NCBI RefSeq assembly: GCF_011762045.1
Contig: NZ_JAASQS010000004.1
Coordinates: 1 to 64,000 of the forward strand
Direction of reading: 5' to 3'
DNA from: Rhizomicrobium electricum
GTDB taxonomy: Bacteria > Pseudomonadota > Alphaproteobacteria > Micropepsales > Micropepsaceae
DNA length: 64,000 nt
Shown here: piece after piece, positions 17,520 to 54,514 of the stretch
How the letters are laid out: every line of letters starts with the position of its first letter
How positions within the stretch are numbered: position 1 is the first letter of the stretch
Program-made: the position numbers and the translations under genes
The notes under the pieces: generated by a model
What the model saw: the letters and a program-made list of their open reading frames with translations, nothing else
The model's database searches: none
What the model was told of the DNA's origin: nothing

Positions 17520-17555
17520 GCGGCGCCCCCTCTGGCACACTTCGGGATATAATAT

Positions 17556-17563
17556 AGTATACG
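17556..17563. promoter_or_regulatory. CGTATACT operator before the cysteine-rich Tat protein
   Basis: AGTATACG on the plus strand; read toward the gene it is ATCGTATACTATATTATA, the closest match to the site at 3005. It lies in the gap between this gene's start and the 3' end of hyfI, so it can only serve the leftward gene. Confidence 0.55.
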
Positions 17564-17576
17564 ATTTGTGAGGACG

Positions 17577-18134: not shown

Positions 18135-19624
18135 CAGAGGTCATGCCCTGAGTAGGAGCAATTGAACGATTTGTTGCAGAGCGGAAAGTCGGCGACGATG
18201 TTGCCGTCGATGGCGGCTTCCAGCAGCGGCCACTGGAACCAGGATGGATCGCGCAAATGGCAGCGGGCCAGCGAACCGTCGCCGTTCACGCGCAGCCAGA
18301 CGAATATGTCGCCGCGAAAGCCCTCCACCATCGCGGTGCCCTCGGCCGCGCGCGGAACGACCTCGCTCAGGATGGGGCCGGACGGCAAGGTGTCCAGCAG
18401 CTGACGGAGTAGCGCGCAGCTTTGCTCGATTTCGGCAATGCGGATGCGAATGCGGGCGTCGACATCGCCGCGCTGCAGCAGCGGGGTCTCGAACGACAGC
18501 GTGTCATACGGCGCCCACGGCAGAACCTTGCGGGTATCGAAGGAACGGCCCGAGGCCCGGCCGATGAAGCCGCCGGCGCCGAACTCCATCGCCAGATCGT
18601 GCCGCAACATGCCCGTGCGCACGGTGCGGTCCTGCAGCGAGGCAGTGTCCTCGTAGAGCGCGACGATGGCGGGGAATGCCTTACGGATCTTCTTGAGCAG
18701 CTTTTCGATTTCGCGCTGCCCCGTCGGCGCAAGATCGGTCGCCACGCCGCCGGGAATGACGCGATCCATCATCAGGCGATGACCAAAGGCGGCGTGCGCC
18801 GCCCGCAGAACCTGCTCGCGCACTACGCCGCAGTTCGCCAGCATCAGGCTGAAGGCGGCGTCGTTGCAGATGGCGCCGACATCGCCGAAGTGATTGGCGA
18901 TGCGCTCCAGCTCCAGCATGATCGCGCGCAAATAAAGCGCCCTGGCCGGAACCTCGGCTGCGCAGGCCGTTTCGACCGCCAAGGCGAACGCGGTGCTGTA
19001 GGCAACCGTCGTGTCCCCGGAGGTGCGTGCTGCCAGCTTGGCGGCATGCTCCAGCGGCGCGCCGGCTATCAGCGCTTCGATTCCCTTGTGCACATAGCCC
19101 AGTCGTGCTTCGAGGCGGACGACGGTTTCGCCGCTGCAGGTGAAGCGGAAGTGGCCGGGCTCGATAATCCCCGCATGTACCGGGCCGACCGGAATCTGAT
19201 GCAGGCTCTCGCCTTCCACCGGCAGGAATTCATACCGCTGCGGTCCGGCGGGCTGTTCGGGCGTTCCCTGCGGATGGCGCACCGTCCAGCGGCCGTGATC
19301 GAGCCACGGCCTTGTATCGGGAGCTTCGTCCGGCACCAGGCCGACGACATCGCTGATGGCCCGTTCGAGACGGCGGGCGGGCAGGCAATCGCGGCCGAGC
19401 GACGGGAAGGATCCGCGGCTGGCGTCGAGACTGAGAATGCCGGTCGTGCCGCTGCCGTGTTCGCGCAAGGCCAGATGCACCGCGCCGGGTTCGCCCCAAT
19501 GGGCGATCAAATCCCATTTGCGTTCGGCGAGTTGGGTGCGGGCGAACTCCCAGACGTCCTGGGTCACCTCCACCCGCGGCCAGCGGCGGTCGGTGTCACC
19601 GATGATGTCGCTGAGTGTGATCAT
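18134..19624 (-). CDS. hyfG: HyfG-like large subunit lacking NiFe ligands (NuoC-NuoD fusion)
   Basis: 496 residues: a NuoC-like part (about 1-125) fused to a NuoD/HycE-like part beginning near EPGHFRFTCSGE and RLGYVHKGIE. In true group 4 NiFe hydrogenases two CxxC pairs hold the metal. Here the first pair is replaced by RTSGDTT and the C-terminal one reads NKSFNCSYSGHDL, with neither aligned cysteine kept. That is the defining state of Ehr (energy-converting hydrogenase related) complexes, which sit between complex I and group 4 hydrogenases and whose substrate is unknown. Start ATG 19624 follows the hyfF stop by three bases. Confidence 0.9.
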   Translation of the reverse strand: MITLSDIIGDTDRRWPRVEVTQDVWEFARTQLAERKWDLIAHWGEPGAVHLALREHGSGTTGILSLDASRGSFPSLGRDCLPARRLERAISDVVGLVPDEAPDTRPWLDHGRWTVRHPQGTPEQPAGPQRYEFLPVEGESLHQIPVGPVHAGIIEPGHFRFTCSGETVVRLEARLGYVHKGIEALIAGAPLEHAAKLAARTSGDTTVAYSTAFALAVETACAAEVPARALYLRAIMLELERIANHFGDVGAICNDAAFSLMLANCGVVREQVLRAAHAAFGHRLMMDRVIPGGVATDLAPTGQREIEKLLKKIRKAFPAIVALYEDTASLQDRTVRTGMLRHDLAMEFGAGGFIGRASGRSFDTRKVLPWAPYDTLSFETPLLQRGDVDARIRIRIAEIEQSCALLRQLLDTLPSGPILSEVVPRAAEGTAMVEGFRGDIFVWLRVNGDGSLARCHLRDPSWFQWPLLEAAIDGNIVADFPLCNKSFNCSYSGHDL

Positions 19625-26167: not shown

Positions 26168-26258
26168 TACGAAGTCGAAAAAGCCTGCTCCGGCATGACC
26201 GTCACAGCGCCGTAGCCGGGCCGACCTCGATTTTTTCTGCTCCTTGGCAGATTTCGCC

Positions 26259-28151
26259 ATGAGCCCGTTTGCCGGACTTGTGTGTTGGGGCGACGGTTCG
26301 CCGACTTCCGAACAGGAACAGCAGCTTGTTGCGATCATGGCGCGACGGTTCGACGGGCAGTTCCATATCCGGCGATCGGAGCATGCTGTTTTCCTGACCC
26401 CTGTCTCCGATCCGTCCTGCGACGGGGCGTTGTTCGCTGCCGATGCGCGATTGGACAATCGTCAGGAAATTGCGGCGCGGTTGGGCGTTCGTGTTTCGAT
26501 AGGCGACGCGGCGCTGGTGCAGGCGGCGTTTGCGCAATCCGGCGACAAGGCAATCGCGGCATTGCTCGGGGCCTTCGCGTTTGCCCATTGGGATGAAGAG
26601 GCTCGCCGGCTGACATTGGCGCGCGATTGCCTGGGGCAACGATCCTTATTCTACCATCGCGGCGACGGCTTCGTCGTTTTCGCCTCCTATCTGCCCGATC
26701 TTCTCGCGGTTCCCGGTGTCCCGCGCGCCATCGACGAGACGATGGCGGCAAAATTCCTGGCGCAGGATCACAACGAACGGGAACGGACCCTGTATCGGGG
26801 TATCGATCGTGTAGCGTCGCGCACGTGTGTTGCCGTCACCGCGCGCCATGCCGAGATTCGGCACTACTGGGCTCCCCGCCTCGACGCTCCGCCGGCCTAC
26901 GCACGGGAAGAAGACTTGGTCGCGCGCGGACGGGAACTTTTCGACCGCGCGGTTGCACGCTGTCTCAGGGAGGTGCCGCGCGCGGCCGTGCTGACCAGCG
27001 GCGGCTTCGATTCCAGCGCCATCGCCGCAACGGCGGCGCGGCAGGGGCATAGCGACATCACCTGCTATACCGGCTTGCCGCCGGACGATCTCGATCTCGC
27101 CGCGTCCCCGTTCACCTATTTTGACGAACGCCCGCCGGTGGAGGCGCTTGCGCGTCTGCATCCCGCGCTCCGCCTTAAGTTCGTGACGCCGCGCGGCATG
27201 CATCCGCTCTACGAGAACTGCATGCGATTGTTCGAACGCCAAGCGCTTCCCGCCTGGGGGCCAATCGACAAGGCGTGGTTCTATTCCTTGGAAGACGCGA
27301 TCGAGGCGGACGGCCATCGGGTCGTGCTGGATGGCGCCGTTGGAAATTATGGACTGTCCTGGGCGGGCATGTTCTCGCTTGCGGCGCTGGCACGTCGGGG
27401 AAAATTCCTCTGCCTGCTGCGTGAGGCGCACAAGATCGGGCAGGCGCGCGATCAGCCGCTGGGACGCGTGCTGAGAGAAGATCTTTTCCGGCGGATCGCG
27501 CCGCGCACTCTACAGCGGCTTGTCACGCGTCTGCATGGCGATGATCCCGATGCCGTGGGCTTCTTCAGCCTGCTCAGTCCCGCTGCGCTCGACACGCTCG
27601 GCTTGCGCCGCCACTGGAAGGAAGACCAGTTCGATCCGCGATCACGACGGTTCGGGGACCCAAGGCGCTTCCGCGCCGGATTGTTGTTCGACAAGTTTCA
27701 GATCTCGCGGGATATCCGGGCCATGAGCCCGATGCTGCGCGGCTACGAATTGCGCGACCCGCATGCCGACCGCGAACTGCTGGAATTCTGCCTGACGGTT
27801 CCGGAAACGCTCTACCGGCGCGAGGGTCTGCCGCGATGGTATGTGCGTCAGGTGTTTGCCGACCGCCTTCCGGCGGAAATTCTCCAGGAACGCCGCCGCG
27901 GTGCGCAAAACGCCGGTTGGTTCGAGACGTTGAATGCGCGCAGAGCGATCATCGAATCCGAAATCGCCGGGATCGCGGCGTCGCCGCTGGCGGACCGTTT
28001 GATCGACGTGCCGCGCTTGAAACGCCTCGTCTCCGCGTGGCCGGAAAATCCGCGTGACCTCAGAATGCGCGCCGGCGAATACCGTCATGGGCTCGACCGC
28101 GCCTGCCATTTCGGTCAATTCATCCGGTGGGTGGAACAGCGGAACGCATAA
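26259..28151 (+). CDS. Asparagine-synthetase-like protein, probable peptide macrolactam cyclase
   Basis: 630 residues from ATG 26259. The N-terminal class II glutaminase-like domain (about 1-200) lacks the catalytic Cys2: the protein starts Met-Ser-Pro, so ammonia release from glutamine is not expected. The C-terminal domain keeps the ATP-pyrophosphatase loop SGGFDSS (247-253) and ends with a typical AsnB-like helical region. This combination is that of lasso peptide cyclases (LasC), which activate an Asp/Glu side chain by adenylation and close an amide ring. A 54-residue precursor-like gene lies just upstream. No B1/B2 leader-processing protein or ABC exporter is adjacent, so the cluster is minimal or the enzyme has another substrate. 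Confidence 0.75.
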   Translation: MSPFAGLVCWGDGSPTSEQEQQLVAIMARRFDGQFHIRRSEHAVFLTPVSDPSCDGALFAADARLDNRQEIAARLGVRVSIGDAALVQAAFAQSGDKAIAALLGAFAFAHWDEEARRLTLARDCLGQRSLFYHRGDGFVVFASYLPDLLAVPGVPRAIDETMAAKFLAQDHNERERTLYRGIDRVASRTCVAVTARHAEIRHYWAPRLDAPPAYAREEDLVARGRELFDRAVARCLREVPRAAVLTSGGFDSSAIAATAARQGHSDITCYTGLPPDDLDLAASPFTYFDERPPVEALARLHPALRLKFVTPRGMHPLYENCMRLFERQALPAWGPIDKAWFYSLEDAIEADGHRVVLDGAVGNYGLSWAGMFSLAALARRGKFLCLLREAHKIGQARDQPLGRVLREDLFRRIAPRTLQRLVTRLHGDDPDAVGFFSLLSPAALDTLGLRRHWKEDQFDPRSRRFGDPRRFRAGLLFDKFQISRDIRAMSPMLRGYELRDPHADRELLEFCLTVPETLYRREGLPRWYVRQVFADRLPAEILQERRRGAQNAGWFETLNARRAIIESEIAGIAASPLADRLIDVPRLKRLVSAWPENPRDLRMRAGEYRHGLDRACHFGQFIRWVEQRNA

Positions 28152-30278: not shown

Positions 30279-32009
30279 TTACGCCGCGTTCACGATCCGG
30301 AAGGTCGTCGAACCGTTCTCGATGCGGCCGAGGCGGCACGCTTTGGCGTCGATGCGACCGCTCGCGGTTGTGCCGATGCGTACGTTGCGCGCCTCGGGTA
30401 CGGCAACACCGCTACCGGTGATAGCGACGTGGTCGAGCGTCGTATCGGTCAGCGTGCGGGCGTCTTTGATGTCGGGCGGCACGATGACTCCGAAGCCGTC
30501 CGACAGGCTGTCCTCGATGCGGACATCGCGGATGCGAAGGCCGGAAATGGATTTGCGGTGCAGGGCGATCTGCAACGCGGCGCGCCAGGTCCAGCCGTGA
30601 TCGTAGCCGCCACAGCGTTTAAGGACGCAGTTCTCTACCACGGTGGTGCCGCGGAAATTATTGTCGATCTTCTCGTTCGATGTCTCGAACGTGGTCGAAA
30701 TCAGGATGCCGCAGCCGCTGGCGATGTCGGTGAACAGGCAATCCTCGATCCGGTTGTTGGCACCGCCGTAGATCGAAGCGCCTTGCGCCAGTGAGGGCAG
30801 TTCGCCGGTGCAGCGGCGGATGACGTTGTTTCCCGGCGCGGCGGATTCCTGGGTGAAGCCTTGGTCCGACGGCGCTGGCCAGATGGCGAAGCAATCGTCG
30901 CCGGTGTTGCGGGTGGTGCAGTTCTCGACCACGCAGTCGCTGGTATCGACGCACAGGTTGATGCCGTCGGCGAACAGATTGCGCATGCGGCAGCCTTCAA
31001 CGCGGATGCCGCGGCAGACATAGAACCATAGGCCGACCTTGGTATGCTCGATCCACAGCCGCGAGACGGTGCAGTTCCTGCCGTGCGCGCCGAAAATGCC
31101 GTCGTTCTGTTCGCTGTCGTTGCGATACTTGAGCCGTCCGTCGAGCGCGAAATCGGAAAGTTTGCTGTTCTCGCCGCTCAGCTTGAAACGCAGCCGTCGA
31201 TTGGCTTGCGGATAGAGCGCTTCGTCGCCGACGAAGGTCGTATGCCACATCCCGGCGCCTTGCAGCGTCACGTTGGAAGGTATTTCGATGTCGCCGGTGA
31301 GCTTGTAGATGCCGGGCGGCACGTAAGCGATTTTCTTGTCTTTGGCGGCTGCCGCAAGCAAAGCCCGCACCGCTTCGGTGGCGTCGCGTTCGCCTTTGCC
31401 GTCGGCGCCGAAATCGGCCAGCGACAATGCGTCGGCCGGACGCGGCAAGGGCGGAGCGACCTGCTCCAAATCCACCAGATCGAGAATGCAATAAGGCGCG
31501 TCGCCCGCTTTGGTCAGGGTGACGACATCGCCTTTGGCGAACGGTACATCCTTCAGCCGGACTTCGTCGTAGAAATGGCGCGGCTTGCCGTCGGCCGGAT
31601 TGTTGGTGAAGGGATAGGTGCCGTACACCCAGGCAAAACGCGACGAGAGAGCAATGTCGGCGATCTTCTCGCCATTGCGCTTAAGAGTGAGGATGTCGGA
31701 TGTGCCGCTGCCGTCCGGCGCATCGGGTAGCGAGAAGCGGACCACCAGCGCATTCGCCGGGGTTGTTACGGTGAATTCGACCGATTGGCCGCTGCCGAGT
31801 TTCACGCAGGTGCCGTTCGACGCTTCGTTCTCGACCCGGAACGGACTGTAGGCAGGGCCCATCACGGTGCCCGAAGTTTTCATCGCTTCGGCCTGATACG
31901 TCGTCCACGCTGTATCGGCGCCGACCGGCCGCGTCGGGCGCACAGCCGCGAAGGCCGGAGACGCAGCGGCGAACGCCGCGGTGGAGATCAGAAGTTCGCG
32001 CCGGTTCAT
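30279..32009 (-). CDS. GH87-type parallel beta-helix glucanase (alpha-1,3-glucanase/mycodextranase-like)
   Basis: 576 residues. A Tat-like signal (NRRELLIST, cleavage near residue 21) is followed by a CBM6/35-like beta domain (about 35-185) and a right-handed beta helix (about 195-570) opened by ADFGADGKGERDAT. Three aspartates, D348 in LFADGIN and D371-D372 in RNTGDDCFA, have the 23/24-residue spacing of the catalytic Asp triad known in GH87 alpha-1,3-glucanases. It would cut alpha-1,3-linked glucan or nigeran outside the cytoplasm. It is the last gene of a four-gene operon with a GH65 phosphorylase; GGAGAA precedes the ATG. A pectinase-like (GH28-related) role is the main alternative. Confidence 0.72.
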   Translation of the reverse strand: MNRRELLISTAAFAAASPAFAAVRPTRPVGADTAWTTYQAEAMKTSGTVMGPAYSPFRVENEASNGTCVKLGSGQSVEFTVTTPANALVVRFSLPDAPDGSGTSDILTLKRNGEKIADIALSSRFAWVYGTYPFTNNPADGKPRHFYDEVRLKDVPFAKGDVVTLTKAGDAPYCILDLVDLEQVAPPLPRPADALSLADFGADGKGERDATEAVRALLAAAAKDKKIAYVPPGIYKLTGDIEIPSNVTLQGAGMWHTTFVGDEALYPQANRRLRFKLSGENSKLSDFALDGRLKYRNDSEQNDGIFGAHGRNCTVSRLWIEHTKVGLWFYVCRGIRVEGCRMRNLFADGINLCVDTSDCVVENCTTRNTGDDCFAIWPAPSDQGFTQESAAPGNNVIRRCTGELPSLAQGASIYGGANNRIEDCLFTDIASGCGILISTTFETSNEKIDNNFRGTTVVENCVLKRCGGYDHGWTWRAALQIALHRKSISGLRIRDVRIEDSLSDGFGVIVPPDIKDARTLTDTTLDHVAITGSGVAVPEARNVRIGTTASGRIDAKACRLGRIENGSTTFRIVNAA

Positions 32010-32018
32010 CGGATTCTC

Positions 32019-34325
32019 CTAAGCGACTTTGACGATCCGGTCCACCAGAACGGTCTTACCCGGCGCCACCGAGACCGGGCGGCCCCAGACGACGAAACAA
32101 TGCGCTTGCCGGTTGGCCGCTTCGGCCGCGATCGTCACGGCGTCATGGGTGATATGAACCGCGAAGCCGTCGCCCTTGTAGGCAAGCCGGAAGGCAAGAC
32201 TCTTCCAGCCGGGATAGAGGCGCGGATTGATGGCGACATGCTCGGGACCGGTGGCGACTCCGCCGAAGCCGAACACCGCCGTCATCCAGGCGCCGCCGTT
32301 GGCCGCCGGATGCGATCCGCCCATGAACACGGTGCCGACATAGACTTTGTACTGGGCTTCGAGATCGAGCTTGGCGGTCTTGAGGAAATATTTGTAGGCG
32401 AAGTCGAGATCGCCGCATTCCGCCGCCACCATGGCATAGGCGCAGGCCGAAAGGCTCGATCCGTGCTCGGTACGCGGCTCGTAATAATCCCAATTGGCCT
32501 TCTTCACGTCGCGGCCGAACCGGTCCTTGAACAGGTTCAGCATCATCACCACGTCGGCCTGCTTGATGACCTGGGTGGGAACGGCCAGTCCCTGTCCGGC
32601 GCCGAGATATTCGTCGGGATGGATGCGCTGTGCCTTCACCGCTTCGACCGGAACGTCCTTGAGATTGAAGTAGCCGTCGAACTGCTCGATCAGTCGGGTC
32701 TCGGGATCGGGCTCCGGCACATAAAGCAGTCGCGAAGCCTCGGCGAACAGCGGCAGTTCCTTGGCGATGCCGATCTTCTTCACCAGCGCAGCCAGCGCAC
32801 CGGCATGGCGTTCGGCCAAGTAAGCGACCGCGGCGCAGGCGATTTCGAACGTCGCTTTGGCCACCATATTGGTGAAGGCGTTGTTGTTGACCCGCTCGTG
32901 GTATTCGTCCGGCCCGATGACGTCGAGCACCTCGTAGCGGTTCTTGTCCTTCTTGAAATAGGCGTAGGAATAATAGAATCGCGCGCATTCGAGGATCACT
33001 TCGGCGCCGCCGTCCAGGAGCACGGAATCGTCGCCGGTGACCTTGAAGTATTCCCACATCGCCATCGCGACATCGCCGGAAATATGGACCTGCTTGTCGC
33101 GGAAGTGGGTTCTGAGTTCGCGCTTGGTGAGGGGATCGCCGATGTTGAAATAGGTGCAGGCATCGTCGCCCGTTTCCTGGCTTTCCCACGCATAAAAAGC
33201 GCCGCGGAACCCCGCCCCTTCCGTCAGCGCCTTGCGCCGCGCGCCGGGGAGGGTCCGGATGCGATAGCGCAAAAGTTCGGCCGCCTTCTCCGGGCTGGTA
33301 TGCAGGAAGAAGGGGAACATGAACATCTCGGTGTCCCAGAACACCGCGCCTTTGTAGACCTGTCCCGAAAGCGCACGGGCGGGAATAGAATTGGCGCTGC
33401 CGTCGACCGGCGCCGCGATCAGAAGCTGGAAGATCGAATAACGCAGCGCATGCTGGGAAACCTCGTCGCCGTCGATGACGACATCGCTTTTGGCCCATTT
33501 GTCGGCCCAGGCGGCGTCATGCTCCGCCTCGAGCACCAAGAGCCCTTGCGCTTTGGCGGCGGTTACGGCGGCAACGGCCGCGTCGGCGGCGGAACCTTCG
33601 ATGGCGTCGAAGCCGGTCGCGACCGCGAACACCTTGAAGAAGGTATAGGTCTTGCCGGGCTCGGCCGCGAAGGCGACGACGCGCAGATTGCGCTTGCCGT
33701 CCCTCACCGAACGTTCCTCGCCGAAGCCGAACGCTGCCGCTTCGGCCACCACGACATCCTTGCCGGCTTCGTTGGTCCGGCCGCGGACAAGCAGCGTCTC
33801 GCCGCGCTTTTCGCAAACGAGACCGAGAATATGAGGGCCGTTGAGATCCCAGATGTCGCCGTCGATGCCGGTTTCGATGTCGATAGTGGCGGCGCGGGAA
33901 ACCGTCACGCTGTAACGGACGACGCCGAGATTTGGGCGTACCGCTGACAGGAACCGCCGCGACGAAATCGTGATCGCGGTGCCGCCGAGATCGAACGCCG
34001 TTTCGCGTTCGAAGCTCGCATTCTTCAGCGACAGGGTCTGGCGATGCGATGTGACCGGCCTCGAAAGCGCGGACACCGGCGTGCCGTCGACGCGGATGCG
34101 GGTATAGCCGCCGTTGGGGGCATTCACCGGCTCGCGCCAAGCCTCGCCGACCTGATCGAACACGCCCGCCAGCGTGACAGCGACAAGTTCGTCCGGCCCG
34201 TATTCGTCGAGCGTGCCGCGATAGCCCATATGGCCGTTGGCGATCTGATAGATATTGCCGTGCCGCATGACGGTCTCGCGGTCATGCGCCAATTCGCGGG
34301 TTTCGACGGTCCAGGGATCAGTCAT
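32019..34325 (-). CDS. GH65 disaccharide phosphorylase/hydrolase
   Basis: 768 residues, no signal peptide, so cytoplasmic. The GH65 layout is an N-terminal beta-sandwich (about 1-270), an alpha/alpha barrel and a small C-terminal domain. FWDTEMF (329-335) and GPDEYHERVNNN are family hallmarks; E474 is the general acid. GH65 enzymes phosphorolyse alpha-linked disaccharides (maltose, trehalose, kojibiose, nigerose) to beta-glucose 1-phosphate and glucose. The beta-phosphoglucomutase in the same operon is the expected partner. With a GH87-type enzyme next door, nigerose or related oligomers are the likely substrate (inference). Its ATG overlaps the upstream MFS stop region (ATGA). Confidence 0.92.
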   Translation of the reverse strand: MTDPWTVETRELAHDRETVMRHGNIYQIANGHMGYRGTLDEYGPDELVAVTLAGVFDQVGEAWREPVNAPNGGYTRIRVDGTPVSALSRPVTSHRQTLSLKNASFERETAFDLGGTAITISSRRFLSAVRPNLGVVRYSVTVSRAATIDIETGIDGDIWDLNGPHILGLVCEKRGETLLVRGRTNEAGKDVVVAEAAAFGFGEERSVRDGKRNLRVVAFAAEPGKTYTFFKVFAVATGFDAIEGSAADAAVAAVTAAKAQGLLVLEAEHDAAWADKWAKSDVVIDGDEVSQHALRYSIFQLLIAAPVDGSANSIPARALSGQVYKGAVFWDTEMFMFPFFLHTSPEKAAELLRYRIRTLPGARRKALTEGAGFRGAFYAWESQETGDDACTYFNIGDPLTKRELRTHFRDKQVHISGDVAMAMWEYFKVTGDDSVLLDGGAEVILECARFYYSYAYFKKDKNRYEVLDVIGPDEYHERVNNNAFTNMVAKATFEIACAAVAYLAERHAGALAALVKKIGIAKELPLFAEASRLLYVPEPDPETRLIEQFDGYFNLKDVPVEAVKAQRIHPDEYLGAGQGLAVPTQVIKQADVVMMLNLFKDRFGRDVKKANWDYYEPRTEHGSSLSACAYAMVAAECGDLDFAYKYFLKTAKLDLEAQYKVYVGTVFMGGSHPAANGGAWMTAVFGFGGVATGPEHVAINPRLYPGWKSLAFRLAYKGDGFAVHITHDAVTIAAEAANRQAHCFVVWGRPVSVAPGKTVLVDRIVKVA

Positions 34326-35818
34326 GCCGCATCCCTGGCTTTGTCTTCCACGAACAGCGTGAGGAAGCCGGCGAGAACCATGGCGGCGCCGGCGAGCACG
34401 AGCGCATAGATCGTCTGTCCGCCGAACACGGTCTTGACCAGAAGGCCCAGCACCGCCGCGGCGATGATCTGCGGGATCACCAGGAAGAGATTGAACATCC
34501 CCATATAGACGCCCATCTTCCGATGCGAGACGGCGCTCGAAAGAATGGCGTAGGGCATGGTGAGAAGGCTCGCCCAGGCAATGCCGATCGCGACCATCGA
34601 AATCAGAAGCATGGTCGGGTCCTTGATGACGATCATCGACATCAGCCCGAGCCCGCCGATGATGAGCGCGATCATGTGGGTGGCGACGCGGCCGACTTTC
34701 CTGGCGATGGGCGGCAGCAGGAACGCGACCACTGCGGCCACGCCGTTATAAACCGCCATCAGCACGCCGACCCAGTTGGCGCCGTCATTGTAGATCGCGC
34801 TGGTGGGATCGCTGGAATGGAAATGGAAACTCGTCACCGCCGAGGTCGTGTAGATGAAGAGGGCATAGAGCGCGAACCAGGTCAGCAGCGTGACGCCCGC
34901 AAGCTGCTGCATCGTCTTCGGCATCGCCTTGAGGTCGGCGACGATCTCGACCATGCCTTTGGTGTGGCCGGCTTTGGCACGCGCCGCGGCGGCGAGCTGC
35001 AACAGGCCGTAGAACGCGATGCTGCCCGAAATGATGTAGAGGCCGGCGTACCAGTCCTGGGCGAAGATCGCATAGGAAAGAGCCGCGCCCGCCAGGATCA
35101 GGAAGAGCCCCTGGCAGATGCAGCTCTTGCGATCCAGGGTGATCGCGTCGGCCGATTCCGCCTCTGTGGAAACGTTGAAGGCTTCCTGTTCCTGCGGCGA
35201 GTATTCGCGCACCCGGAAGATGGTCCACAGCACGGCGGCCAGGAACGCAAAGCCGCCGATATAAAAGGACCATCGAACCGAGGGTGGAATAATGCCTGCG
35301 GGCGCGGTGTTGGCGATGCCCAGCCATTTGGTGAATACCCAGGGGCAGACCGAAGCGACCACCGACGAAACGCCGATGAAGAAGGTCTGCATCGCGAAGC
35401 CTTGGGTGCGTTGCGCATCGGGCAGCATGTCGCCGATGAAGGCGCGGAACGGCTGCATGGTGATGTTGATCGAGGCGTCCATGATCCACAGCATGCCGGC
35501 CGCGACCCACAGGGCGGGCGAATTCGGCATGGCTATGAGCGCCAGCGAAGAGAGAATGGCGCCGATCAGGAAATAGGGCTTGCGGCGGCCGAGTCGGTTC
35601 CAGGTCTTGTCGCTCATATGGCCGATCAAGGGCTGGATGATGAGGCCGGCGACCGGCGCGGCCACCCACAGGATCGGAATGGCATCGACCTTGGCGCCGA
35701 GCGTCTCGAAGATGCGGCTGATATTGGCGGTCTGCAGGGCGAATCCGAACTGGATGCCCACATAGCCGAAACTGATGTTCCACAATTGCCAGAAATCGAG
35801 CCGGGGTTTTGTTGTCAT
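34322..35818 (-). CDS. MFS sugar transporter (SLC45/GPH-like)
   Basis: 498 residues with about 12 transmembrane helices. LIGHMSDKTWNRLGRRKPYF is the extended loop typical of glucoside and disaccharide symporters of this group. It should bring oligosaccharides from periplasm to cytoplasm. Start ATG overlaps the stop of the beta-phosphoglucomutase gene, and its own stop overlaps the GH65 start, so all are translationally coupled. Confidence 0.88.
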   Translation of the reverse strand: MTTKPRLDFWQLWNISFGYVGIQFGFALQTANISRIFETLGAKVDAIPILWVAAPVAGLIIQPLIGHMSDKTWNRLGRRKPYFLIGAILSSLALIAMPNSPALWVAAGMLWIMDASINITMQPFRAFIGDMLPDAQRTQGFAMQTFFIGVSSVVASVCPWVFTKWLGIANTAPAGIIPPSVRWSFYIGGFAFLAAVLWTIFRVREYSPQEQEAFNVSTEAESADAITLDRKSCICQGLFLILAGAALSYAIFAQDWYAGLYIISGSIAFYGLLQLAAAARAKAGHTKGMVEIVADLKAMPKTMQQLAGVTLLTWFALYALFIYTTSAVTSFHFHSSDPTSAIYNDGANWVGVLMAVYNGVAAVVAFLLPPIARKVGRVATHMIALIIGGLGLMSMIVIKDPTMLLISMVAIGIAWASLLTMPYAILSSAVSHRKMGVYMGMFNLFLVIPQIIAAAVLGLLVKTVFGGQTIYALVLAGAAMVLAGFLTLFVEDKARDAA

Positions 35819-36591
35819 TGGGGTCTCGTGGCGCCCGTGCGCACAGTGTGTTCGAACCAGTGATCCAGATCTGCGAGCGAAATTTCTGCAAGGTCGCGCA
35901 CGACGATGTCGGCGCCCTCGCGCTTCAGTTCGTCGTCATTGTTCTCGCGGGCGATGCCGAGGGTCAAACCGAAGCGGCCGCGGGCGCCCGCCTGCACGCC
36001 GCTGACGGCATCTTCGACCACGACCGCACGATGGCGCGTGGTGCCGAGCCGATCGCAGGCGACCGCAAAGATGTCGGGCGCGGGTTTTCCCTTGAGACCG
36101 AGTTCGGCCGAGACGACGCCGTCGACACGGGCCTCAAAGAGGGTGGCGAGCCCTGCCTTGCCAAGCACTTCGGCGCCATTCTTCGAGGAGGTGGCGATCG
36201 CCACCTTGATCCCGTGCCGGCGCAACACGCCGATGAGGGCGATGGTCGAGCCGAACACCCGCACGCCGTGTTGTTTCAACACGCGGTTGAACGCCGCGTT
36301 CTTGCGATTGCCGAGGCCGCAGATCGTCTCGCACTCGGGCGGATCGGCAGGATCGCCGAACGGAAGTTCGATGCCGCGGGATTTCAGGAACGCCGCGACT
36401 CCTTCGTAGCGCGGCCGGCCGTCGACAAAGGCGAGATAGTCCTCCCGCCGGAACGGCTCGAACGGTATGGCAGCGCTTTCTGCGCGCTCCGACAGAAAAG
36501 CGTCGAACATCTCCGTCCACGCCGCGGCATGCACCGCTGCGGTATCGGTGACGACCCCGTCCATGTCGAAGATGGCGGCGTCAAAATGCAT
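35815..36591 (-). CDS. pgmB: Beta-phosphoglucomutase (HAD family)
   Basis: 258 residues from ATG 36591, set by GGGAGG (36599-36604) upstream; the open frame extends to 36696 without a site. HAD motifs: DMDGVVTDTA (nucleophile Asp and acid/base Asp), TSSKNG, the Lys in GKPAPD and EDAVSGVQAG. The cap domain has the beta-PGM type insert. It interconverts beta-glucose 1-phosphate and glucose 6-phosphate. First gene of the operon pgmB-MFS-GH65-GH87, divergent from the TonB receptor at 37022. Confidence 0.92.
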   Translation of the reverse strand: MHFDAAIFDMDGVVTDTAAVHAAAWTEMFDAFLSERAESAAIPFEPFRREDYLAFVDGRPRYEGVAAFLKSRGIELPFGDPADPPECETICGLGNRKNAAFNRVLKQHGVRVFGSTIALIGVLRRHGIKVAIATSSKNGAEVLGKAGLATLFEARVDGVVSAELGLKGKPAPDIFAVACDRLGTTRHRAVVVEDAVSGVQAGARGRFGLTLGIARENNDDELKREGADIVVRDLAEISLADLDHWFEHTVRTGATRPQ

Positions 36592-36750
36592 CGCACGCCT
36601 CCCATCCGGCGCTCGTACCGTACCCGCGAATTGAACCGAAACGGAAAGCGCGCCGCCGAAGCATTTTGAACTCGAACATCTTGATCCGGACGGCATGCGC
36701 CATCTCGATGGCCATTATCGCCGCCTTGGGGAAGCAGCCAATTGCAGCGC

Positions 36751-36760
36751 ATACGTATAC
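36751..36760. promoter_or_regulatory. ATACGTATAC, candidate LacI-type operator
   Basis: ATACGTAT is a palindrome with a central CG, the usual LacI-family layout. It also contains CGTATACT (36754-36761), the 8-mer of the FCD-type sites, so either regulator could be involved. Confidence 0.5.
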
Positions 36761-36842
36761 TTGAAGGCATGCGCGGATGCGCCGCTCGATCGGCTGTGGC
36801 CAAAACGCAATACGCACCGCGATGCGTTCGCGCGCCGCGCAC

Positions 36843-36854
36843 GTATACGTATAC
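36843..36854. promoter_or_regulatory. GTATACGTATAC perfect palindrome, candidate LacI operator
   Basis: A 12-base perfect palindrome with a central CG, centred 94 bases from the other ATACGTAT site. The LacI-family gene lies just after the receptor. Confidence 0.6.
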
Positions 36855-37021
36855 GGCAGCATTGGCCGTTTGCGCATGTGGCGGGATTATGCCGGTCGAT
36901 CACACGAGGTCCGTCGTGCGAGTAGGGGGAAGCCCTCGATTAAACAGCCTACGCACAGATGGCGCGGCCCGAGCGGCAGCCGTGATGGAGCAAGGGCAAA
37001 GAGTTTGGGAGGATTGACAAG

Positions 37022-40000
37022 ATGAATAGTGCTGAATTCGGCCGCAAGGCCGCCATGCGGGGAAGCGCGTCGCTGCTGGTTCTGGCGGCGTTCGCGGCCG
37101 CTATGCCGGCCTTGGCGCAGGCCGAATCGGGGTCGATGGAAACCATCGTCGTCACCGGCGTCCGGGCATCGCTCGAGAACGCGATCCAGATCAAGCGTAA
37201 TGCCGATACCGTCGTCGATTCGATTTCGTCGACCGACATCGGCGTGTTTCCGGACAAGTCGATTTCCGACGCGTTGCAGCGCGTGCCCGGCATCACGGTG
37301 AACCGCCTGCAGTCGAACGACGACACCACCCATCCTTCGGGCGAGCCGACCAGCATCCTGCTGCGCGGCCTGACCCAGGTGCAGACCTTGTTCAACGGCC
37401 ATGACAGCTTCTCGGCCGACGGCCATCGCGGTCTGAACTTCAACGACATCTCGCCGGAAATGCTGGCGGGCGTCGACTCCTTCAAGAACCAGACCGCCGA
37501 CATGATCGAAGGCGGCATCGCCGGCACGGTCAACCTCAAGACCCGCCTGCCGTTCGACGCCGACGATCACGTCCTGTCGGCCTCGGCGAAGGCGAACTAC
37601 AACGACCGCTCCGATGTCGGCACGTTCGATTACTCCGGCATGGCCGGCAAGAACTTCGACACGCCGTACGGCAAGTTCGGCATCCTGATCGGCTATGCCA
37701 ACAGCCATGTCGTGACCCAGACCAATTCGGTCATCACGCTGCGCAACGGCACGTTCTGCTCGGGCGGCGACCTCGATTCGAGCGGTCACGCCATTGTCGG
37801 GTCCGACGGCTCCATCCCGTGCACGGCCAATCCCTACGGCGGTACCAACTGGGCCTACATCCCCGATCAGGTCAACTATTCCAACGTCAACTACAACCGC
37901 AAGCGCGAAGGCAAAGCGCTGGCGCTGCAATGGGCGAGCCCGTCCGGCGATATGCGCTGGAACTTCCAGTACAACGACTCGGCCTACCGCAATGCCTGGC
38001 TCGAGCGCTCGTCGAACTTCAACCTGTTCGGCGAATGGGCCGCGCCCGGCTTCAATCCGCTGAGCACGCAGGTGGTGATGCCGGCGGCCGGCACCAGCGC
38101 CTTCACCTGGAACGGCGACGGCACGCTGAAGCACGGCGTCATCACCCAGAACATCTTCTCGAGCGGCTGGCGCGGCTCGTGGGGCGGTATGAGCGTGCAG
38201 GACGCGATCGACAGCGCCTCGGCCGTTCCCGGCAAGCCGTATGTGAATGCCTGCGCCGCTCCGAACGTCTGCGCCACCAATACGCTCGGCGTCACGCTCG
38301 AAAACCAGTCGCGCGTGTTCGACCATTCCGAAGCCACCCGTGATTTCGCGACGTCGTTCGCCTGGGACATCACGCCGAAAATGCACGTGAACGTCGAAGG
38401 CAACTACATCAGCGCCAAGACCGGCAACACCGACCTTCTGGTCGCCGACGACATCCTGGTCAATGCCGACTATACGCGCGACGGCAACGGCCCGCCGACC
38501 ATCAAGGTCCTGCCCGGCGACAACGTGAACTATGCGGCCGGCTTCCTGACGAATCCCCACAACTACTGGGTCAACTTCATTCAGGACCATTTCGAAGCCA
38601 ACTACGCGCAGGAAAGCGCGATCAAGGGCGATGTCCAGTACGATGTCGACAACGGCTGGCTGACCTACGTCAAAATGGGTGCCCGCTATTCGGCCCGCAT
38701 CCAGGACGTCAAGTATTCGGCCTACAACTGGAACCCGGTCTCGGCGCCCTATATGTGCAACGGCCCGGCGTTCAACATCGACAACACCTCGCCCGCAGCC
38801 TATCCGGCCTCGTGCGGTCATAACGGCGCCTTCAACGGCTATGGCGCGAACATCTGGGAGCAGGGCGACTTCGGCAGCGACTTCTTCGACGGCAGCGTCT
38901 TCAATCCGGGTCCGTCCTACTTCCTGAAGAATTCGATCCTGAAGGATCCGAACGCCGCGGCGATGGCGCTGTCCAACCGCGCCGTCAACGAGCCCGGCGG
39001 CTGGAATCCGCTGTGCACGCGTTCGGGCAACACCAACGGCTGCTTCGTTCCGTCGGAAATCCTGAACGTCACCGAAAAGGTCACGGCGCTCTATGCCCAG
39101 ATCGGCTTCGGCGGCGACTCGCTGGCGCTGTTCGGCATTCCGATTTCGGGCAATATGGGCGTGCGCTGGGTGATGACCGATCTGACTTCGACCGGCGGCA
39201 TCACCTATCCGCAGACCACCTGGTACACCAACCAGCTTACGGGCGCGCCTTGCTCGACGCCGGTTTCGGGCACCCAGGTCACCAACATCCGTTGCTGGCT
39301 GACGCCGGAACTCGGCGCCTTCTCCAACGGTGCTTCGGGTCTGTCGAGCTACGGCAAGACGTCCTACATCATGCTGCCGAGCTTCAACGTGAAGTTCGAC
39401 CTGACCGATAATTCGATCGTGCGCCTGGCGGCTTCGGAAGCCATGGCACGGCCCGATTTCGGGTTCCTGCGCAACTACGTGTCGATCAATTCGCCGGCGA
39501 TCGACGTGTCCAACACTTCGAACTACGTCAAGTACAATTCGCCGACCGCCGCACACACACCGGCGAACGTGACCGGCTACGACTTCGTGTTCACCGCCGA
39601 TGCGGGCAATGCAGGTCTGCGTCCGGAAACGGCCTGGCAGTTCGATGCCAGCTACGAGTACTACATCAACGCTTCGTCGTCGTTCGCGGCCGACGTGTTC
39701 CTGAAGGAACTCAACAACTCGATTTCCTACGGCTCGGTGGCCCGCACGTTCACCAACAACGGCTCGTCGCAGACAGTCCTGGTGCGCGGTCCGGTCAACT
39801 CGTCGAACGGCGGCGAGCTGTGGGGCTTCGAACTCGCCTACCAGCAGTTCTTCGACTTCCTGCCGGATCCGTTCGACGGCCTCGGCGCGCAGTTGAACTA
39901 CACCCACACCCATCAGTCGGGCATCAAGAACTCGAACCTGGCGGTACAGGCGGGCTACACGGCGGGTTCGACGGTGGCGTTCGGCGGCGGCAACACGGTC

Positions 40001-40387
40001 GACAATGCGATCATGGACTCGCACCGGCTGGCCGGCATTTCCGACGACAGCTACAACATCGTCGCTCTGTACGAGAAGGGCCCGATCGCCTTCCGCACGG
40101 CGTGGAACTGGCGCTCGTCGTTCCTGACCGACAACCTCGACTGCTGCACCGGCACGCCGATGTTCCAGAAGGCTGCCGGCTTCCTCGACGCCCACCTCGG
40201 CTACAAGCTGAATGAGCATGTCGAACTGTCGCTGGACGGCTCCAACCTGCTCGACACGCGCATCACCTTCCAGCAGCAGCTGTTCGGCGACACCTCGCTG
40301 ACGCCGAAGGCCAAGCTGGTGAAGAAGGACACCGGCTGGTCGTATTCCGGCCGCCTGCTGCAGTTCGCGGTTCGCGTGAAGTATTGA
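37022..40387 (+). CDS. TonB-dependent receptor, TonB-Xanth-Caul type
   Basis: 1121 residues with GGGAGG upstream of ATG 37022. A signal peptide ends near LAQA. The plug begins ETIVVTGVRASLENAIQIKR and GVFPDKSISDALQRVPGITV, the pattern of the large TonB-Xanth-Caul receptors for carbohydrates in Caulobacter and Xanthomonas. The barrel ends in a terminal aromatic (AVRVKY). It likely imports alpha-glucan oligosaccharides, since it is divergent from pgmB-MFS-GH65-GH87 and next to a LacI regulator. A hairpin terminator follows. Confidence 0.92.
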   Translation: MNSAEFGRKAAMRGSASLLVLAAFAAAMPALAQAESGSMETIVVTGVRASLENAIQIKRNADTVVDSISSTDIGVFPDKSISDALQRVPGITVNRLQSNDDTTHPSGEPTSILLRGLTQVQTLFNGHDSFSADGHRGLNFNDISPEMLAGVDSFKNQTADMIEGGIAGTVNLKTRLPFDADDHVLSASAKANYNDRSDVGTFDYSGMAGKNFDTPYGKFGILIGYANSHVVTQTNSVITLRNGTFCSGGDLDSSGHAIVGSDGSIPCTANPYGGTNWAYIPDQVNYSNVNYNRKREGKALALQWASPSGDMRWNFQYNDSAYRNAWLERSSNFNLFGEWAAPGFNPLSTQVVMPAAGTSAFTWNGDGTLKHGVITQNIFSSGWRGSWGGMSVQDAIDSASAVPGKPYVNACAAPNVCATNTLGVTLENQSRVFDHSEATRDFATSFAWDITPKMHVNVEGNYISAKTGNTDLLVADDILVNADYTRDGNGPPTIKVLPGDNVNYAAGFLTNPHNYWVNFIQDHFEANYAQESAIKGDVQYDVDNGWLTYVKMGARYSARIQDVKYSAYNWNPVSAPYMCNGPAFNIDNTSPAAYPASCGHNGAFNGYGANIWEQGDFGSDFFDGSVFNPGPSYFLKNSILKDPNAAAMALSNRAVNEPGGWNPLCTRSGNTNGCFVPSEILNVTEKVTALYAQIGFGGDSLALFGIPISGNMGVRWVMTDLTSTGGITYPQTTWYTNQLTGAPCSTPVSGTQVTNIRCWLTPELGAFSNGASGLSSYGKTSYIMLPSFNVKFDLTDNSIVRLAASEAMARPDFGFLRNYVSINSPAIDVSNTSNYVKYNSPTAAHTPANVTGYDFVFTADAGNAGLRPETAWQFDASYEYYINASSSFAADVFLKELNNSISYGSVARTFTNNGSSQTVLVRGPVNSSNGGELWGFELAYQQFFDFLPDPFDGLGAQLNYTHTHQSGIKNSNLAVQAGYTAGSTVAFGGGNTVDNAIMDSHRLAGISDDSYNIVALYEKGPIAFRTAWNWRSSFLTDNLDCCTGTPMFQKAAGFLDAHLGYKLNEHVELSLDGSNLLDTRITFQQQLFGDTSLTPKAKLVKKDTGWSYSGRLLQFAVRVKY

Positions 40388-40448
40388 TCTTTGGATTGGG
40401 GCGCTCGCACGGGCGCCCCGTTCCGGACACCTTTCCCAGTACCTTTCC

Positions 40449-40478
40449 AGGGCCCGCTTCGCCGCGGGCCCTCTTTGT
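40449..40478 (+). terminator. Hairpin terminator after the receptor
   Basis: AGGGCCCGC (40449-40457), loop of six, GCGGGCCCT (40464-40472), then CTTTGTT. A second GC hairpin (GGGGCGC/GCGCCCC) about 40 bases upstream lacks a T run. Confidence 0.75.
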
Positions 40479-40575
40479 TATGAATGTCTATTCCCGGTTG
40501 TGACGCAGCCGCGCTGCTTTTGCCGCCCCGATATGGCATTGTGCGTGGCGCAACGTTCGATGGAACTCTGGGGCG

Positions 40576-41637
40576 ATGGCAGGAAAGCGCGATTCAGACT
40601 CCGGACCGCCGCGGCCCACCTCGTTCGACATCGCGCGCCGGGCCGGCGTTTCGCAACCGACCGTATCGCGGGCGCTGCGCGGCGATCCCACCATCAGTCC
40701 GATCACCCGCCGCCGGGTCGAATTCATCGCCCGCGAACTCGGCTACAAGGTCGACAAGAACGCCTCCAACCTCCGCGGTCAGCATTCGCAGACCATCGCC
40801 ATCCTGTTCTTCGAGGATCAGCGCTTCAACGCTTCGCTGATCAATCCGTTCTTCCTGTCGATGCTGGGATCGATCGCGGGCGCCTGCGCCAAGCGCGGCT
40901 ACGACCTCATTATCTCCTGCCAGCACCTGTCGAACAATTGGCGTGTCGATTACGAAGACAGCCGGCGGGCCGACGGCATCATTCTGCTCGGTTACGACGA
41001 CTTCCTCACCTACAGTGCCGAACTCGAGCGGCTGGTGGACGAGGGCACCCACTTCGTGCACTACGGGGCGACGCTGGAACGCCATCCCGGCCTGTCGGTC
41101 GGCTGCGACGATTACGCCGGCGGTTACGAGGCGACCAAGCACCTCATTTCGCTCGGCCGCCGCTCTATCGCCTTTCTCGGATCGGCGTCGGACCACTATC
41201 CCGAGTTCTTCGCGCGCTATCGCGGCTATTGCGACGCCTTGCGCGATGCCGGACTGCCGGTCGTGGCCGAGCTTCAGGCCGATGCGATCAGCGCGCTGCC
41301 GGAGGGCGAGCGGGCGGCGCGTCAGGTCATCGACGGCGGCAAGCCGTTCGACGCCATCTTCGCCGCCAGCGATCTGATCGCCATCGGTGCGCTCGGCGTG
41401 CTGCGCGACCAGGGCTTGGCGGTGCCCAAGGACGTCTCCATCGTCGGCTTCGACGACATTCCGCCTGCCAGCATGGTGACCCCGCCTTTGACCACCATGC
41501 GCCAGGACACCCAGCTCGCCGGCGAGGTTCTGGTCGAGACCTTGCTCAAGCTGATGCGGGGCGAGGCCGCAGAGGCGACCGTTCTGCCCTGCAAACTGGT
41601 GGTGCGGCGATCCTGCGGGGCTGCGGAACGCCTGTAA
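40576..41637 (+). CDS. LacI-family transcriptional regulator
   Basis: 353 residues. The HTH (FDIARRAGVSQPTVSRALRG, about 15-35) and the hinge region (ARELGYKVDKNASNLR) are standard, followed by a periplasmic-binding-protein-like sugar domain. It ends PCKLVVRRSCG as typical. It probably represses the receptor and the pgmB operon by binding the ATACGTAT palindromes, with an alpha-glucan oligosaccharide as inducer; target and ligand are inferred from position. Confidence 0.92.
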   Translation: MAGKRDSDSGPPRPTSFDIARRAGVSQPTVSRALRGDPTISPITRRRVEFIARELGYKVDKNASNLRGQHSQTIAILFFEDQRFNASLINPFFLSMLGSIAGACAKRGYDLIISCQHLSNNWRVDYEDSRRADGIILLGYDDFLTYSAELERLVDEGTHFVHYGATLERHPGLSVGCDDYAGGYEATKHLISLGRRSIAFLGSASDHYPEFFARYRGYCDALRDAGLPVVAELQADAISALPEGERAARQVIDGGKPFDAIFAASDLIAIGALGVLRDQGLAVPKDVSIVGFDDIPPASMVTPPLTTMRQDTQLAGEVLVETLLKLMRGEAAEATVLPCKLVVRRSCGAAERL

Positions 41638-53401: not shown

Positions 53402-54514
53402 ATGTTGAAACTCATGGTGGCCTGCCTCTCCATGGCGGTGATGGCGGCCAGTGCCGGCGCGGCGATCACCAAGGCGCCGTTCGGCAAGACGGCGGACGGC
53501 AAGGCTGTCGACCTTTACACGCTGACCGGCAAAAACGGATTCGAGGCGAAAATCTCGACCTTCGGGGCGACGCTCGTCTCGCTCAAAGTGCCCGACAAGA
53601 ACGGCAAGCTCGCCAATGTCGTGCTCGGCTTCGATACGGTGAAGCCCTATGTCGACGGCGTGCCGTTCTACGGCGCCACCATCGGGCGCTATGGCAACCG
53701 CATCGCACTCGGCAAGTTCACGCTCGACGGCAAGCCGGTTCAGCTCACCGTCAACGACGGCCCCAACAGCCTGCACGGCGGCAAGGGTTTCGACAAGCGT
53801 CTGTGGACGGCGCAGCCGGTCGAATCGAAGCAAGGTCCCGCGCTCAAGCTGACCTATGTCAGCGCCGACGGCGAAGAGGGCTATCCCGGCCAGCTCACGG
53901 TGCACGTGACCTACGCCGTCAAGGCCGACAATTCGCTCGCCATTTCCTACGAAGCGACCACGACCAAGCCGACGGTGGTGAACCTCACCAACCACAGCTA
54001 TTTCAATCTCACCGGCGATCCCAAGAACACGATCCTGAACCACCTGTTGACGCTCAAGGCCGACCGCATCACGCCGGTCGACAAGACGCTGATCCCGACC
54101 GGCGAGCTTCGCCCGGTCAAAGGGACGCCGTTCGATTTCACCAAGGCGACCGCGATCGGCGCCCGTATCGGGGCCAATGACGAGCAGCTCAAGTTCGGCC
54201 GGGGCTACGACCATAACTGGGTGCTGACTTCGGGCGGCGGCAAGCTTGCCACCGCGGCGATCCTGGAAGACCCCACGAGCGGCCGTGTCATGGAAGTGAA
54301 GACCACCGAGCCGGGCATCCAGTTCTATTCGGGCAACTTCATGGACGGCAAACCGGCCGGCAAGGGCACTGTCTACAATCACCGCACCGGCCTGTGCCTG
54401 GAAACCCAGCACTTCCCGGATTCGCCGAACAAGCCGAAGTTCCCGTCGACCGTGCTCAAGCCCGGCCAGACCTATCACAGCGAAACCGTACTGGTGTTCC
54501 GTAACGCCAAATAA
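53402..54514 (+). CDS. galM: Aldose 1-epimerase (mutarotase), secreted
   Basis: 370 residues, with GGGG just before ATG 53402. A signal peptide ends near SAGAA. GalM signatures: FGATLVSLKVPD, ATIGRYGNRI, NSLHGGKGFD (catalytic His region), NLTNHSYFNL and the catalytic Glu in CLETQHFPDSPN. It speeds interconversion of alpha and beta anomers of sugars, here in the periplasm. Directly precedes araA and is probably for L-arabinose released by beta-L-arabinofuranosidase, which must mutarotate for uptake or isomerisation. A strong terminator separates it from araA. Confidence 0.92.
   Translation: MLKLMVACLSMAVMAASAGAAITKAPFGKTADGKAVDLYTLTGKNGFEAKISTFGATLVSLKVPDKNGKLANVVLGFDTVKPYVDGVPFYGATIGRYGNRIALGKFTLDGKPVQLTVNDGPNSLHGGKGFDKRLWTAQPVESKQGPALKLTYVSADGEEGYPGQLTVHVTYAVKADNSLAISYEATTTKPTVVNLTNHSYFNLTGDPKNTILNHLLTLKADRITPVDKTLIPTGELRPVKGTPFDFTKATAIGARIGANDEQLKFGRGYDHNWVLTSGGGKLATAAILEDPTSGRVMEVKTTEPGIQFYSGNFMDGKPAGKGTVYNHRTGLCLETQHFPDSPNKPKFPSTVLKPGQTYHSETVLVFRNAK

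Follow-up and report, generated by a model that had tools for sequence, protein, structure and literature searches.

In Lachnoclostridium phytofermentans a gene for a glycoside hydrolase of family 87 (GH87) lies near that for a family 65 (GH65) nigerose phosphorylase in the Cphy_1874 region, with LacI regulators (PMC9061262, PMC8950772). That cluster has ATP-binding cassette (ABC) transporters and a GH31 alpha-1,3-glucosidase, and the genome encodes an oligoglucan phosphorylase separately. The locus analyzed here occupies positions 30279-41637 of a window of 64,000 nucleotides (nt) at the beginning of contig C4 in a Rhizomicrobium genome of 4.73 Mb. Unlike the cluster of L. phytofermentans, it carries a TonB receptor, a major facilitator superfamily (MFS) carrier and a packed run of beta-phosphoglucomutase-like, MFS, GH65 and GH87 genes. 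The locus is very likely dedicated to the uptake and breakdown of alpha-1,3-linked gluco-oligosaccharides.

GH87 enzymes of Gram-negative bacteria have been produced from Flavobacterium (PMC10696023) and Prevotella (PMC13421300). A putative GH87 polysaccharide utilization locus (PUL) of Prevotella melaninogenica, proposed for mutan, shares a TonB transporter and GH87 with the Rhizomicrobium locus; it differs in having SusD, GH97, GH99/71, SusR and a multimodular lipoprotein GH87, and GH65 is not among the genes listed (PMC13421300). Paracoccus mutanolyticus RSP-02 is an alphaproteobacterial mutanase producer, for which the genome paper names no enzyme gene or locus (PMC6256630). The TspA tailspike of the Rhodobacter capsulatus gene transfer agent is a beta-helix protein with similarity to a Streptomyces GH87; it differs in being a trimeric, phage-derived tailspike with its active site between subunits (PMC13420450). 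A preliminary description of this DNA, made without searches, knew of no described alphaproteobacterial locus of this kind, and none, from Rhizomicrobium or another alphaproteobacterium, was named as a GH87/GH65 locus in the titles and abstract openings searched. The proximity of GH87 to GH65 is already known from Lachnoclostridium (PMC9061262); what is new, as a variant of this theme, is the form with TonB and MFS genes, together with the compact branch of GH87 and the pair of operator-like sites reported below.

The unit consists of six genes, with GH87, GH65, MFS and beta-phosphoglucomutase-like genes on the (-) strand and TonB receptor and LacI genes on the (+) strand. All six were found where the preliminary description had placed them, and its limits coincide with the edges of the unit conserved among congeners. 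The four leftward genes had been said to overlap or abut; ATGA overlaps were present at the beta-phosphoglucomutase/MFS and MFS/GH65 junctions, and GH65 and GH87 were separated by 9 bp.

The GH87 enzyme and the GH65 phosphorylase

The GH87 gene (30279..32009, (-) strand) encodes 576 amino acids. Its product matched PF22815 (7e-30) and PF22816 (8.8e-27), both above cut-off, and the two-part GH87 catalytic unit, a beta-sandwich (D1) followed by a right-handed beta-helix (D2), was recovered in both the Pfam scan and an AlphaFold model. The best sequence match in the PDB was 7c7d, a Streptomyces alpha-1,3-glucanase (1e-60). An Asp triad, D348/D371/D372 with a spacing of 23/24, was invariant in 12 of 12 aligned proteins (three of them PDB GH87 chains) and also in 26 of 26, and corresponds by alignment to D1045/D1068/D1069 of Agl-FH1, for which catalytic roles are known (PMC10696023). 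The AlphaFold model, made from 26 sequences, had a predicted local distance difference test (pLDDT) value of 90.9. When it was searched with Foldseek the first seven matches were all GH87, with template modelling (TM) scores of 0.77-0.85, and the eighth had an E-value of 1e-11 and a TM score of 0.42; polygalacturonases stood lower among the matches, and a weaker Pfam match to a pectate-lyase-like family was obtained. The beta-helix enzyme with a GH87-like Asp triad proposed earlier is thus borne out by family models, triad, PDB match and fold. Judged by its sequence and modelled structure, the protein is a member of the alpha-1,3-glucanase-type GH87 family, set apart from pectinases.

The five Rhizomicrobium GH87 protein starts compared read MNRR-, and that of the window protein MNRRELL, which we take to be a signal of the twin-arginine translocation (Tat) type. 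The signal region lacks Cys in the window protein, and no added domain was found in this protein using Pfam. A GH87 tree of 60 rows was made by a quick method with 46 of the best 80 GH87 loci, the reference chains including those of Agl-KA (5zru) and of the enzyme from P. glycanilyticus FH11 (6k0m). The nine Rhizomicrobium enzymes formed one branch (support 100) within a 20-row branch (100) shared with Verrucomicrobiota and Bacteroidota, in which none of the three known-structure enzymes of the tree fell; the GH87 proteins of other Pseudomonadota (a Massilia bin and a gammaproteobacterial bin) were in another branch. Eight members of the 20-row branch from outside Rhizomicrobium (L033, L034, L036, L038, L039, L040, L042 and L032) had 573-577 amino acids in seven cases and 612 in one, and matched no domains beyond the two of GH87 and beta-helix models that overlap them. 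Larger GH87 proteins were found elsewhere, namely one of 751 amino acids with a ricin-type domain (L171, Chloroflexota) and open frames of 757-1923 amino acids at the best GH87 matches of nine Lachnospiraceae above cut-off.

The GH65 gene (32019..34325, (-) strand) encodes a protein of three domains, with PF03632 at 2.2e-96 and the N- and C-terminal domains PF03636 and PF03633. Its PDB matches were 4ktp (3e-142) and 3wiq (5e-107); its nearest solved relatives are the 2-O-alpha-glucosylglycerol phosphorylase Bsel_2816 (closest) and then kojibiose phosphorylase. Its GPDEYHE aligned with GPDEYHE of glucosylglycerol phosphorylase, GPDEFHE of kojibiose phosphorylase and GADEYEN of maltose phosphorylase, and its HGSSLS stands where the solved phosphorylases have HxSSLS; these are presumably the catalytic-Glu and phosphate-site sequences. 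No signal sequence was seen, and the enzyme is predicted to be cytoplasmic.

Six positions are reported to tell GH65 specificities apart, with the motifs KV[MF]NES for maltose, TRIGPP for trehalose, EEAPxx for kojibiose and FAITQA for alpha-1,3-oligoglucan phosphorylase (De Beul et al., PMC8537180). At these positions EEQTHG stands in the locus enzyme and in all but one of the seven congener proteins aligned, which has EEQSHG. EEQTHG differs from the motifs reported for maltose, kojibiose, trehalose and trehalose 6-phosphate phosphorylases and for oligoNP: KV[MF]NES is absent, as is TRIGPP (the alignment had no characterized trehalose-type chain), Q394/T402 replace the A/P of the kojibiose motif, and E64/E392/Q394 depart from FAITQA, and the enzyme falls in a different clade than the FA[IT]-type rows. 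Three control chains gave the expected motif or were one letter off (CsKP EEAPWE, LbMP KVFNES, 9lb6 DQGQDK against DQGQDE). Positions 64, 416 and 585 shifted between the three alignments for some rows, among them controls (LbMP KVFNES, KVFN-S, WVFN-S), and 392, 394 and 402 were stable for the rows cited. The Rhizomicrobium genome contains two GH65 genes, neither with the oligoglucan motif, and the second carries the maltose-phosphorylase motif KVMNES. A maltose or trehalose specificity of the locus enzyme was rejected on its motif, the genome having this separate maltose-type gene. The locus enzyme keeps W391 and E392, two residues of kojibiose phosphorylase that contact the +1 glucose by binding it (PMC8537180), and has Phe in place of Thr417. 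In the GH65 tree 21 EEQ-type proteins formed one clade (100/99); three rows labelled as kojibiose type (CsKP, L030, L153) did not form one clade.

The substrate was approached through the company that EEQ-type enzymes keep. GH65 was searched in 19 GH87-bearing genomes and in nine GH87-hit Lachnospiraceae (one genome being common to both sets), and was present in 15 and seven of these, respectively. Among the best 80 GH87 loci, which were taken for the locus survey, five were from Chloroflexota, three of them with GH65 within the 10-kb flank, and in all three a FAIT or FATT GH65 stood in tandem with an EEQTYG GH65. In six of the seven GH65-bearing Lachnospiraceae the EEQ type was about 2.2 kb from a GH65 of the FA[IT] clade, and in the seventh the two were on two contigs. 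The neighbors Cphy_3313 and Cphy_3314 are a nigerose phosphorylase and an alpha-1,3-oligoglucan phosphorylase (PMC8950772); because the tandem of EEQ and FA[IT] types resembles this pair, nigerose phosphorylase (EC 2.4.1.279) is the best call for the EEQ-type GH65.

An EEQ-loop DNA pattern was also searched; it is exact and misses variants such as that of G064, so that absences are to be read as lower bounds. The pattern was found in 8 of 96 Micropepsaceae genomes, all among the nine GH87 carriers, and the ninth carrier (G064) has a GH65 with EEQTHG and Val at the Ala/Gly position of the pattern. Among 397 Lachnospiraceae nine had GH87 above cut-off, 12 had the EEQ pattern and seven had both. 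By arrangement, co-occurrence and exclusion, nigerose is probably the substrate of the locus GH65.

Transport genes, conservation and the control region

The MFS transporter (34322..35818, (-) strand; 498 amino acids) matched PF07690 at 9.2e-29. Its best NCBIfam model was GPH_sucrose (TIGR01301), with 108.7 bits against a cut-off of 511, a weak likeness to sucrose symporters; the protein is predicted to be an inner-membrane disaccharide importer. The beta-phosphoglucomutase-like gene (35815..36591, (-) strand) lies in an open reading frame extending to 36696, with a likely start at about 36591, the M of MHFDAAIFDMDG. Its product matched PF00702 (2.1e-21) and contains DxDGVxTDTxxxH, a motif of the haloacid dehalogenase (HAD) fold which we take to be that of beta-phosphoglucomutase. 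The preliminary description had named it beta-phosphoglucomutase outright; the HAD motif agrees with this, and both NCBIfam models stayed below their curated cut-offs (TIGR02009 with 150.9 bits, 2.45 below 153.35; TIGR01990 with 96.1 against 189.4), for which reason the suffix "-like" is used. The TonB-dependent receptor (37022..40387, (+) strand; PF00593, PF07715) was of the Xanthomonas/Caulobacter type (TIGR01782, 521.6 bits, cut-off 310) and not of the SusC type of Bacteroidota PULs, and no SusD-like family was found among the six locus proteins in Pfam and NCBIfam scans. The LacI-family regulator (40576..41637, (+) strand; PF00356, PF13377) travels with the cassette.

Relatives of the GH87 enzyme at E <= 1e-20 were found in 9 of 96 Micropepsaceae genomes, all Rhizomicrobium, and among 385 genomes drawn from the class Alphaproteobacteria PF22816 was found in one, that of the window. 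Eight congener loci (L013-L020, in stretches of 17.6-20 kb) were compared. GH65 adjoins GH87 in all eight, and MFS and receptor genes were present in seven, L014 ending at a contig edge. LacI was present in six, three of these being cut by the stretch end, and L017 and L014 end before it. The beta-phosphoglucomutase-like gene was full length in five and partial in L019, and its position was unobservable in L014. Six flanking genes of the window gave a single match in the congener stretches, a 112-amino-acid, 37% histidine-kinase fragment in L020; the cassette sits in different genomic places among the congeners. Chance clustering was ruled out, since the unit is kept in eight congeners whose flanks differ.

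The order beta-phosphoglucomutase-MFS-GH65-GH87 was also found in Verrucomicrobiae DG1235 (L038) and in bin BP7.bin11, with proteins 55-70% identical, and in a Limisphaerales bin (L039) MFS-GH65-GH87 follow a 50-amino-acid beta-phosphoglucomutase piece; for L038 and L039 the identities were 55-69%. The shared order suggests a trait moved between phyla. L038 and L039 differ from Rhizomicrobium in being followed downstream by one or more GH99/GH71-like genes, and no copy of the palindrome described below was found in them. Three Chloroflexota loci (L171, L172, L173) resemble the window in having GH87 with an EEQ GH65 and differ by the extra FA[IT]-type GH65; L171 has LacI-like and beta-phosphoglucomutase-like genes as well, and its GH87 has an added lectin-like domain. 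In L171 and L172 neighbors resemble an ABC carrier by their protein starts, and the one that was scanned had no Pfam match. In one locus, from Mucilaginibacter, GH87 is preceded by genes for a SusC-like receptor and GH97, an arrangement resembling the Prevotella PUL (PMC13421300). Separately, GH87, beta-phosphoglucomutase-like and GH65 genes were seen in a run at 8942-13512 of a Kiritimatiellota locus (L174), the GH65 having the motif QQ.P, and a GH65 fragment at a contig edge in L093 was 47% identical to the window GH65.

The spacer between the beta-phosphoglucomutase-like and receptor genes contains both copies of the palindrome GYATACGTATRC present in the window, GCATACGTATAC at 36749..36760 and GTATACGTATAC at 36843..36854 (both strandless); none was obtained in 100 shuffles, and no further copy was found elsewhere in the same genome. 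The pair was exclusive to the locus in four of the five genomes searched (the window's own and three of four congeners), a third site being present on contig C25 of G062, the genome of L018. Of the congener spacers seven were examined, and every one had two palindromes. TTGGC was located 7 nt beyond each palindrome, on both sides, in all eight spacers, and was followed by a GATWAT-like box in seven of eight on the rightward side, one of the seven reading GAACAT, and in five of eight on the leftward side. The predicted promoters of the window are TTGGCT-16-GATAAT (36714..36741, (-) strand) and TTGGCC-17-GATTAT (36862..36890, (+) strand); a promoter scan of the spacer gave one match in the leftward direction, where 0.2 would be expected. 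A LacI-type protein, presumably that of the locus, would bind the two palindromes, and since these lie upstream of the putative -35 boxes, activation or looping fits better than simple blocking. Helical phasing of the palindromes looked suggestive but was rejected; the spacings were 94, 94, 105, 105, 84, 168, 153 and 98 bp, two of the eight did not fit the phase, and the loci share ancestry. Between the palindromes, at 36795-36813, lies a block like TGTGGC(G/C)AAAA(C/A)GCAATA; of the eight congener spacers most have it, L017 deviating, and it is possibly the site of a second regulator.

Proposed pathway and alternative readings

In the proposed pathway, oligosaccharides freed from alpha-1,3-glucan by other organisms or enzymes would enter the periplasm through the TonB receptor, where the Tat-exported, compact GH87 would cut them to nigerose. 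The polymer may be a mutan-type glucan, nigeran, alternan or another glucan, perhaps one of fungal cell walls. The MFS carrier would move nigerose into the cytoplasm; there GH65 would phosphorolyse it to glucose and beta-glucose 1-phosphate, which the beta-phosphoglucomutase-like enzyme would convert to glucose 6-phosphate. The LacI-type protein may control both divergent transcripts through the two spacer palindromes. The Tat-like signal and lack of an added GH87 domain favor periplasmic processing of oligosaccharides over direct attack on walls. As neither GH65 of the genome has the oligoglucan motif, GH87 must itself reach the disaccharide, or one of the five GH31 genes found elsewhere in the genome helps. 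The alpha-1,3-glucan pathway put forward in the preliminary description draws support from the sequence and fold of GH87, the motif and clade of GH65 and the co-occurrence of the two in two unrelated families.

Several observations weigh against this pathway or its parts. The probable assignment of EEQ to nigerose is made by arrangement, co-occurrence and exclusion; the partner clade, which had no characterized row in the tree, was named by motif alone, and its position 402 is T, N, S or D in Lachnospiraceae. Glucosylglycerol phosphorylase is the sister of the EEQ clade as well as the closest solved relative. The Fisher values for co-occurrence of GH87 and EEQ (9.5e-11 in Lachnospiraceae, 6.8e-11 in Micropepsaceae) are overstated, as they ignore shared ancestry and treat related genomes as if independent. 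Five Lachnospiraceae with the EEQ pattern had no GH87 above cut-off, and no GH65 of any kind was found in two with GH87 (G492, G672). Only seven of the 15 GH65-bearing genomes had a clear EEQ type (G476, G477, G478, G480, G481, G482, G491), that of G483 being a fragment; four GH65-bearing Bacteroidota with GH87 in the window's branch have maltose-type and/or hydrolase-like GH65s, and other Bacteroidota of that branch have no GH65. No GH65 was seen in the flanks (up to 10 kb, often shorter) of 71 of the best 80 GH87 loci. GH87 needs no EEQ GH65, and the reverse link, from EEQ GH65 to GH87, is the stronger. The beta-phosphoglucomutase-like gene was not found in the congener locus L018 (G062), even at E 10, and the position of -35-like boxes 7 nt beyond the palindromes is odd for simple repression.

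The alternative that survives best is a sub-case of the same pathway, in which nigeran, an alternating alpha-1,3/1,4 glucan, is the substrate and GH87 is a mycodextranase that cuts the alpha-1,4 bonds and releases nigerose directly. Such an enzyme would fit the pathway too, and the GH87s characterized so far are all mutanases or mycodextranases (PMC13421300). It would explain an EEQ GH65 without an oligoglucan-type partner in Rhizomicrobium, where the genome has an EEQ and a maltose-type GH65; the Chloroflexota and Lachnospiraceae sets with both EEQ and FA[IT] types could shorten oligomers. However, the linkage cut is not readable from a tree in which the branch holds no known-structure enzyme, and the five GH31 genes might handle oligomers instead. 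Nigeran is a tentative possibility, on the unlikely side.

A secreted GH87 that attacks insoluble alpha-1,3-glucan of fungal walls directly, followed by the same pathway, is somewhat less likely again. A type II system can carry Tat substrates on to the cell exterior. Hydrolysis of alpha-1,3-glucan of Aspergillus walls by a GH87 enzyme is on record (PMC10696023). In L040, a Pedosphaera bin, one compact GH87 and two longer frames (1069 and 1352 amino acids, 43-44% identical, with added repeats) stand in a row at 11915-19223. Against an extracellular first step, the window enzyme and its eight branch relatives are compact (573-612 amino acids) relative to the larger GH87s elsewhere, and the window protein has no Cys in its signal region.

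It is improbable that the locus serves another alpha-glucoside, either kojibiose or 2-O-alpha-glucosylglycerol being the substrate of GH65 and a glucan with branches or mixed linkages (alternan, branched dextran, cyclic nigerosyl-nigerose) that of GH87. The best solved relatives of GH65 and the sister position of glucosylglycerol phosphorylase speak for it, and the sole enzyme-specific NCBIfam model within the E-value limit was that of kojibiose hydrolase (228 bits, cut-off 800). Yet glucosylglycerol phosphorylase has Ile at the position of Glu392 of the EEQ clade, kojibiose phosphorylase has A394/P402 against Q and T/S in the clade, and the EEQ GH65 is found together with GH87 as well as with the oligoglucan-like GH65. 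A pectinase-like or other beta-helix enzyme that resembles GH87 in triad spacing only, to which the pectate-lyase-like match and the lower-placed polygalacturonases might point, is ruled out for practical purposes by the two GH87-specific Pfam domains above cut-off and the seven leading GH87 fold matches.

Other genes of the window were noted beside the alpha-1,3-gluco-oligosaccharide locus. At 26244-28151 ((+) strand) an asparagine-synthase-like protein had a lasso-peptide cyclase as its best NCBIfam model (195 bits, cut-off 525), and a small peptide cluster may lie beside the glucan locus there. A second sugar locus at 1476-12470 comprises an alpha-galactosidase (melibiase), a DUF5695 protein, a TonB receptor, a GntR/FCD regulator and a GH127 beta-L-arabinofuranosidase. 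An aldose 1-epimerase and an L-arabinose isomerase, followed by genes that by their starts resemble a sugar kinase, an aldolase/epimerase and a solute symporter, occupy 53402-60408, probably an arabinose catabolic cluster.

We tentatively suggest, as a conjecture not yet to be favored, that Rhizomicrobium and Verrucomicrobiota share a previously undescribed scavenging system, in which a compact periplasmic GH87 subfamily lacking added domains, perhaps a nigerose-releasing exo-enzyme or a mycodextranase, would act on imported soluble oligomers and be wired to a clade of nigerose phosphorylases. In Rhizomicrobium, and there only as far as seen, a LacI-type protein and paired operators upstream of the -35 boxes would act by activation or DNA looping instead of simple blocking. 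The locus offers a short, complete and testable pathway with an exact operator to mutate, a GH87 branch that has no known-structure enzyme in the tree, and a sequence signature for probable nigerose phosphorylases.

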